Source: Azadirachta indica
Taxonomy: Eukaryota > Streptophyta > Magnoliopsida > Sapindales > Meliaceae
Assembly (NCBI GenBank): GCA_022749755.1
Contig: CM040443.1
Coordinates: 15,391,744 to 15,455,743 of the forward strand
DNA: 64,000 nucleotides
Reading direction: 5' to 3'
Shown here: positions 42,968 through 43,616 of the stretch, piece by piece
Numbering within the stretch: the stretch's first letter is position 1
Layout: each line of letters starts with the position of its first letter
Program-made: the position numbers and the translations under genes
The notes under the pieces: generated by a model
Seen by the model: only the letters and a program-made list of their open reading frames with translations
What the model was told of the DNA's origin: nothing
Database searches by the model: none

Positions 42968-43616
42968 ATGGAAGGAGATTCTAATCATCAATTTAAAACT
43001 ATTTGTGTTTTTTGTGGGTCAACCTCTGGGAAAGGTGAAAAGTTTATAAAAGCAGCGGACAACCTGAGTTGATTTTAGTTGAGCGAAAACTTAGTCTAGT
43101 ATATGAAGGAGGTAGCCTTGGGTTAATAGGGTGTGTGTCAACTGCCGCACATGTAGAAGGAAGTGAAGTCATAGGTATCATACCAAAGGCTTTATCTGCA
43201 AGTAACATAACTAGCAAAACAGTTGGAGAAGAACTAATGGTCTCAACAATGCATGAAAGAATTGCTAAAATGCTTGATTTTGCAGATGCTTTTATTGCCT
43301 TATCAGGTGGTTTTGGGACCTTAAAGGAAATTTTTCAAGTTGCATTTGGGCACAACTCACCATTCACCAAAAACCCATAGAATTGTTAAATGTTAATGGT
43401 TTCTTTAACAAGTTATTGTCTTTTCTTGATCATGCTGTAGAACAGAATTTTATTTCAAAGATGGCTCGTAAACTCTTCATTTCTGCTCTAACTGCTAATG
43501 ACTTGATCAATCAGTTGCAGAACTTTGTCCATGAATCAGATCCAACAATGGCACAATTAGACTGGTCAAGTGAAAGCAGTAAAAAGCGAAAGCTGGATTT
43601 GTCGCTTCATTTGTAA
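42968..43616 (+). pseudogene. LOG-like: LOG-like cytokinin phosphoribohydrolase retrocopy, captured
   Basis: LOG enzymes release active cytokinin bases from their riboside 5'-monophosphates in the cytosol. The copy starts MEGDSNHQFKTICVFCGSTS, the conserved LOG N-terminus, then KLSLVYEGGSLGLIGCVS (usual YGGGSxGLMG), VIGIIPKAL, STMHERIAKMLDFADAFIAL, and the signature PGGxGTxxE as SGGFGTLKE (43303 on; Pro to Ser). It ends KRKLDLSLHL at 43616. It is collinear for about 216 codons with no introns, although plant LOG genes have several. Two apparent one-base deletions (about 43069-43072 and 43344-43347) shift the frame. It lies between integrase and the polypurine tract, so it was probably captured as RNA during reverse transcription. 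Confidence 0.9.

Follow-up and report, generated by a model that had tools for sequence, protein, structure and literature searches.

Steinbauerova et al. in 2011 reportedly described two Athila-like elements in which an extra open reading frame (ORF) 3' of pol is similar to LOGL4; we know of no partner gene or tail in those elements. LOG proteins are known to contain a YgdH domain, which PMC9289625, in the part available, lists for LTR elements from Citrus sinensis, C. clementina, and Populus trichocarpa, with reference to Steinbauerova 2011. Thus, LOG as a cargo of retrotransposons, which a first-pass annotation of the DNA studied here had presented as unusual, was already known. Among the matches listed in literature searches on LOG in retrotransposons, PMC9289625 was joined by one genome paper that contains the words lonely guy, gypsy, and retrotransposon (PMC8087826), and the available main text of two papers on extra ORFs (PMC7264820 and PMC6317226) does not contain the term "log". 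Gypsy elements of Phalaenopsis that carry an AlkB m6A demethylase are a similar case, in which an additional enzyme has become fixed in a Gypsy lineage of plants, but the enzyme and the lineage are different, and activity in vitro was shown for AlkB (PMC9289625, available part). The elements described below share with those of Citrus and Populus a LOG domain within LTR elements, Sapindales included, whereas the earlier account, in the part available, is a domain listing without copy state, partner gene, or phylogeny (PMC9289625). New here are the pairing of LOG with a carlavirus-type nucleic-acid-binding (NABP) gene, the breadth of plants involved, and a LOG tail with a basic stretch and LxLxL.

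An Athila-type element with a LOG gene

The window, i.e., the whole 64,000-nucleotide stretch of neem (Azadirachta indica) DNA that was analyzed, contains an LTR retrotransposon with the following features.

38042..38046, no strand: target-site duplication, left copy GGAAG, 4/5 bases as in the right copy
38047..39457, + strand: 5' LTR, 1411 bp, from pairwise comparison with the 3' LTR
39464..39481, + strand: primer binding site TGGCGCCGTTGCCGGGGA, 6 bp past the LTR, read from the letters
39868..40560, + strand: probable gag start, then truncated pol and RNase H remnant, from by-eye reading against sister frames
40602..41922, + strand: broken integrase, zinc-binding domain and core/C-terminal region (PF17921, E 1.9e-11)
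42131..42658, + strand: remnant of the carlavirus-type nucleic-acid-binding (NABP/CRP) gene, 92.4% to a sister gene that matches PF05515/PF01623
42968..43616, + strand: intronless LOG gene, broken in the window copy, from DNA match to sister copies
44710..44721, + strand: polypurine tract GGCCGGGGGGTG, read from the letters
44722..46130, + strand: 3' LTR, 1409 bp, from pairwise comparison with the 5' LTR
45775..45780, + strand: splice-donor-like AAAAG/GTAAGT inside the 3' LTR, motif at the matching site in 15/20 sister loci
46131..46135, no strand: target-site duplication, right copy GCAAG, from flank comparison with the left copy

The letters of the primer binding site are presumably those of the tRNA-Asp type. 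Diaspora and Calypso, members of the Athila group, have a tRNA-Asp primer binding site ~5 bp past the LTR, and the window site agrees with them in spacing and presumably in type (PMC1142308, available part). Pfam profiles identified gag, reverse transcriptase (RT), the integrase core, and the integrase zinc domain in sister L018, and RT, the integrase core, and RNase H in sister L016; the protease scores of both were under the Pfam cut-off, and no chromodomain match was found among the element frames scanned with Pfam. Both sisters have the Gypsy order of gag, protease, RT, RNase H, and integrase, with extra ORFs 3' of pol. Judged on the primer binding site, the gene order, and the 3' extra ORFs, the window element is an Athila-type Ty3/Gypsy element. 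LOG and NABP occupy the slot that is held by env-like frames in other Athila elements.

The window element is dead, with an age of a few million years. By-eye reading indicates that it lacks the greater part of gag, protease, and RT, and positions 41034 to 41922 match sister integrase at 93.7%. The two LTRs are 94.3% identical outside gaps (93.2% counting gaps) and differ by 63 transitions and 17 transversions (K2P 0.060). With rates assumed to lie between 1.3e-8 and 7e-9, this divergence gives an age of ~2.3 to 4.3 million years.

LOG is an integral part of the element family

Twenty loci of ~10 kb, picked because LOG was present, were compared; a further 19 were covered at 1.7 kb. NABP was found upstream of LOG, at the same position and spacing, in all 20 of the ten-kb loci; integrase was upstream of LOG in 18 (the exceptions were L015 and L026, and it was partial in L027), and an LTR was downstream in 19 (the exception was L026, and it was incomplete in L017 and L022). 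Because its place is constant in 20/20 loci, LOG is no separate insertion, and the proposal in the first-pass annotation that LOG lies between integrase and the 3' LTR as an integral part of the element was borne out. The pairing was also evident from the NABP side: among the best 90 of the 150 NABP places listed in the neem genome, 77 were followed on the same strand by LOG at a distance of 271 to 540 bp (median, 301), compared to a mean of 0.08 with shifted places, and 13 had no listed LOG.

Locus L015 lacks integrase and has an open LOG. A separate subfamily was considered for it and ruled out; the locus has an integrase deletion, with 96.5% and 92.2% on its two sides.

State of the LOG copies

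When the window LOG DNA was searched against its own genome, at least 40 places, the window included, matched near full-length, with 40 of 208 candidates scored, the other places having 92 to 94% DNA identity to the window copy. An open sister LOG used as a protein query gave at least 152 matches in the same genome (150 of 392 candidates scored; element surroundings checked for some), and 21 of the 150 listed were stop-free from residue 1 to 217, some of them with internal deletions.

Compared to a sister frame, the window LOG has two one-base gaps, one in-frame premature stop, and Ser for Pro in PGGxGT. The two one-base deletions and the Pro-to-Ser change had been recognized before, as the only damage; the additional premature stop means that the window LOG is more broken than had been stated. 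This stop and the carlavirus-type NABP gene beside LOG had both been overlooked. The suggestion that sister copies might retain an intact frame proved correct, as the full 216 residues are encoded without a stop in 10 of the 40 copies (window included) and 215 residues in one more. L008, a sister copy with an open frame at the place also designated L015, matched PF03641 with an E value of 2.1e-42. Of 21 stop-free sister copies (11 of the 40 plus 10 of 20 further places, with partial L058 and L066 excluded), 15 retained PGGxGTxxE and the catalytic Arg context; the window copy did not. LTR comparison placed two elements with open LOG frames at ~0.7 to 1.35 million years (L018; K2P 0.019 over 1402 sites) and ~1.5 to 2.75 million years (L015; K2P 0.039 over 510 sites). 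L032 and L033, two of the ten open copies, have the same translation. They and L055/L056 are identically translated LOG copies at distant places, which reflects either recent duplication or redundant assembly.

Matches of AtLOG3 to the host LOG genes L071, L072, and L073 were split into separate blocks, whereas the element LOG was unsplit. The lack of introns points to a probable origin from processed RNA, in agreement with the first reading of this gene. Three other LOG3-type copies, L068 (C7:771100), L069 (C5:1908000), and L070 (C14:17440800), have lost all or most host introns; they are apparently processed and differ from the element LOG. Equal scores were obtained for the LOG3-type places C7:771369 and C7:5951068 and likewise for three C5 places.

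A carlavirus-type gene beside LOG

In sister L008/L015, NABP sits between integrase and LOG, and its product matched PF05515 (Viral_NABP) with an E value of 9.1e-8 (32.8 bits; cut-off, 23). The L008 protein also matched PF01623 (Carla_C4) with a score of 24.7 (cut-off, 20.9), and the L002 protein scored 22.1 against PF05515, just below the cut-off of 23. The protein P0139 was above the cut-offs of both families, and P0121 was above that of PF05515 (34.1) but below that of PF01623 (20.4 versus 20.9). NABP belongs to a conserved family in plants: 473 candidates yielded 407 relatives at E ≤ 0.001, one cluster having 566 members, and named matches among the best 120 listed came from Populus, Xanthoceras, Acer, and Rhamnella. 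In Rhamnella P0208, 111 residues of the element integrase type (66% identity) are fused to NABP.

Like the cysteine-rich proteins (CRPs) of carlaviruses and allexiviruses, NABP matches PF05515/PF01623 and has a basic stretch ahead of a Cys cluster, but the element protein, known here from sequence, has ~182 residues and conserved flanks (PMC12172455, available part). Its predicted model was poor (pLDDT 54.8). Viral CRPs are silencing suppressors, and one of them, CVB p12, is a transcription factor that causes hyperplasia (PMC12172455, available part). Searches of open-licence PMC papers for NABP in Athila led to a paper on plant viral proteases and to one that, by its title, has another subject, and no report of NABP in Athila was found in them. 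Equally long contigs (P0134/P0016, 8723; P0126/P0088, 4511) were considered as a sign that NABP and LOG share a contig, but this is weak as evidence because lengths of 905, 734, and 1018, too short for both genes, coincide as well.

Origin and spread of the element LOG

The closest LOG proteins among the matches listed were P0004 of Melia azedarach and P0001 (83 to 86% identity). More distant matches, among the best 120 of 7802, came from Diplodiscus, Reevesia, Pterospermum, Xanthoceras, and Populus, and a Paulownia LOG query led to Rehmannia and Orobanche. A 40-row tree separated 33 element-type LOGs (support, 95/89) from 6 host-type LOGs (97/98) and one bacterial row, a split present in 200/200 bootstrap trees. 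Xanthoceras P0105 was basal in the element clade, neem and Melia formed one group, and another held Paulownia, Rehmannia, and Orobanche. Several deep forks of the clade were weak (81/71 to 89/88), and Reevesia grouped beside Lamiales while the remaining Malvaceae were elsewhere. Judged from its position in this tree, the element LOG is no fresh host capture, as none of the 6 host-type LOGs in the sample falls with it; a capture from a present host LOG gene was not supported. With 6 host-type LOGs sampled, there may also be a host LOG subfamily inside the element clade.

Melia P0004 is a LOG fused to the gag start of the neem element family, and Xanthoceras P0002, which was outside the tree, carries a gag-protease piece. 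Outside the neem genome, these Melia and Xanthoceras LOGs are the ones for which sequence shows residence in an element; the remaining plant LOGs of the clade are probably element genes, as their copy number and similarity suggest. Orobanche P0274 and P0276 represent element-type LOG clusters of 244 and 328 members in parasitic plants and have a changed tail.

Features of the LOG protein

In 22 proteins from several plant families, PGG and E121 were invariant and R98 was nearly so. Among 167 listed LOG proteins, picked by similarity to the queries, PGGxGTxxE was present in 141 and missing in 26, some of which are incomplete. A predicted structure of P0001, the nearest database protein (pLDDT 80.9), matched the Arabidopsis LOG-like structure 2a33 with TM scores of 0.94 (target) and 0.76 (query) at 52% identity, and other LOGs matched too. 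The element LOG resembles Arabidopsis At2g37210 (2a33) and At5g11950 (1ydh) in its modeled fold, PGGxGTxxE, and ~50% identity but differs from both in the lack of introns and in a C-terminal tail with basic residues and LxLxL. In 129 of the 167 proteins, LxLxL occurred among the 12 C-terminal residues, and 123 of these proteins have a basic pair ahead of it; the 38 without it include incomplete rows, rows from Xanthoceras, and every one of the 16 rows from Orobanche, in which the tail is altered. The LxLxL tail was absent from the neem host LOGs L071, L072, and L073. The basic stretch and LxLxL may be a nuclear signal plus an EAR motif. LxLxL motifs can recruit TOPLESS. LOGs with the same conserved residues can differ in activity (PMC11593424, available part).

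Potential role of LOG in the element

The most probable explanation, in our view, is that LOG is an old processed capture that is carried by the element and expressed with NABP from the LTR to the element's benefit. LOG would have been acquired as processed RNA long ago and then inherited with the element as a clade of its own. The LTR promoter would drive both genes, and splicing may generate short 3' messages. Splice donors within LTRs have been predicted for Diaspora (PMC1142308, available part); with the donor motif in 15/20 neem loci, this makes a spliced 3' message plausible as a prediction. LOG would free active cytokinin from its nucleotide and thereby raise active cytokinin levels at sites of element expression. 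This would favor dividing, meristem-like cells, from which new copies may reach the germ line. NABP, as viral cysteine-rich proteins do, may blunt silencing or alter host transcription. We can suggest tentatively, as a possibility that is less likely than the general explanation, that NABP and LOG together stand in for env as a two-gene module in endogenous retrovirus-like elements of plants: a virus-type silencing suppressor or transcription factor would act alongside a cytokinin activator targeted to the nucleus, and the two would have kept host cells dividing and permissive since before the rosid-asterid split.

It seems unlikely that LOG travels as a passive passenger that was captured a single time, is unused, and is open just because the copies are young. 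The open copies with compared LTRs are indeed young (K2P 0.019 in L018 and 0.039 in L015), and LOG variation within the neem genome looks neutral: among 40 copies, shared variants were distributed 75/63/52 by codon position with a synonymous-to-nonsynonymous ratio of 49:141, that of singletons was 30:113, and the pooled dN/dS in 16 open copies was 0.80. However, control values for shared variants of RT (0.95, 19 copies), integrase (0.95, 18 copies), and NABP (1.01, 21 copies) matched that of LOG (0.99, 21 copies), so these differences arose after insertion and are silent on the need for LOG; the within-genome test was therefore dropped as powerless. A long-unused frame should decay, as the window copy and most sister copies did within a few million years, whereas open frames of mostly 215 to 218 residues with invariant catalytic residues are found across Sapindales, Malvales, Populus, and Lamiales. 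Long-term use of LOG is argued from these open proteins in other families, which have 48 to 68% identity to the first row.

Had LOG been captured more than once, or had the element moved horizontally from one plant lineage to another, in place of a single old capture passed on by inheritance, this could account for the placement of Malvaceae in two parts of the tree, with Reevesia beside Lamiales; both scenarios are compatible with the weak deep forks and the thin sampling of host LOGs. We nevertheless regard them as doubtful, since the element LOGs form a single group relative to the host rows in every bootstrap tree, neem falls with Melia and the three Lamiales genera fall together, and one NABP family is present in Populus, Xanthoceras, Acer, and Rhamnella. 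That LOG is no longer chiefly a hormone enzyme and instead has a nuclear function that depends on its tail would fit the frequent LxLxL and basic pair and their absence from three host LOGs; this appears quite improbable given that the catalytic residues are retained, that the complete motif is missing from each of the 16 Orobanche rows and from some other rows, and that TOPLESS recruitment by this LxLxL is putative. There is next to no likelihood that positions 42968 to 43616 represent a host LOG locus or were inserted into the element separately, the outcome that would have overturned the original interpretation: no supporting point was found, the position and spacing of NABP and LOG are constant in 20/20 loci, and the host genes L071 to L073 match in separate blocks and end in different tails.

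If the element LOG is active, as the favored explanation of a long-inherited gene expressed to the element's benefit would have it, a selfish element spreads a hormone enzyme and could directly steer host development. Some plant pathogens likewise steer host development. The pairing with NABP offers a testable case of counter-silencing tools common to RNA viruses and retroelements. For annotation, copy number and similarity suggest that many LOG "genes" of Malvaceae and Orobanche (clusters of 327, 244, and 328) are probably element genes.

Other elements in the window

A partial sibling element with gag frames is located at positions 64 to 4464 on the minus strand, with an LTR at 3048 to 4461 (92.2%). 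The segment from 56551 to 57953 is LTR-like, with 80% identity to the element family, and is perhaps an old solo LTR. By-eye reading indicated Copia- or other Gypsy-like frames at 10562 to 10993 (-), 19194 to 19610 (+), 32552 to 32926 (+), and 51694 to 52116 (-).
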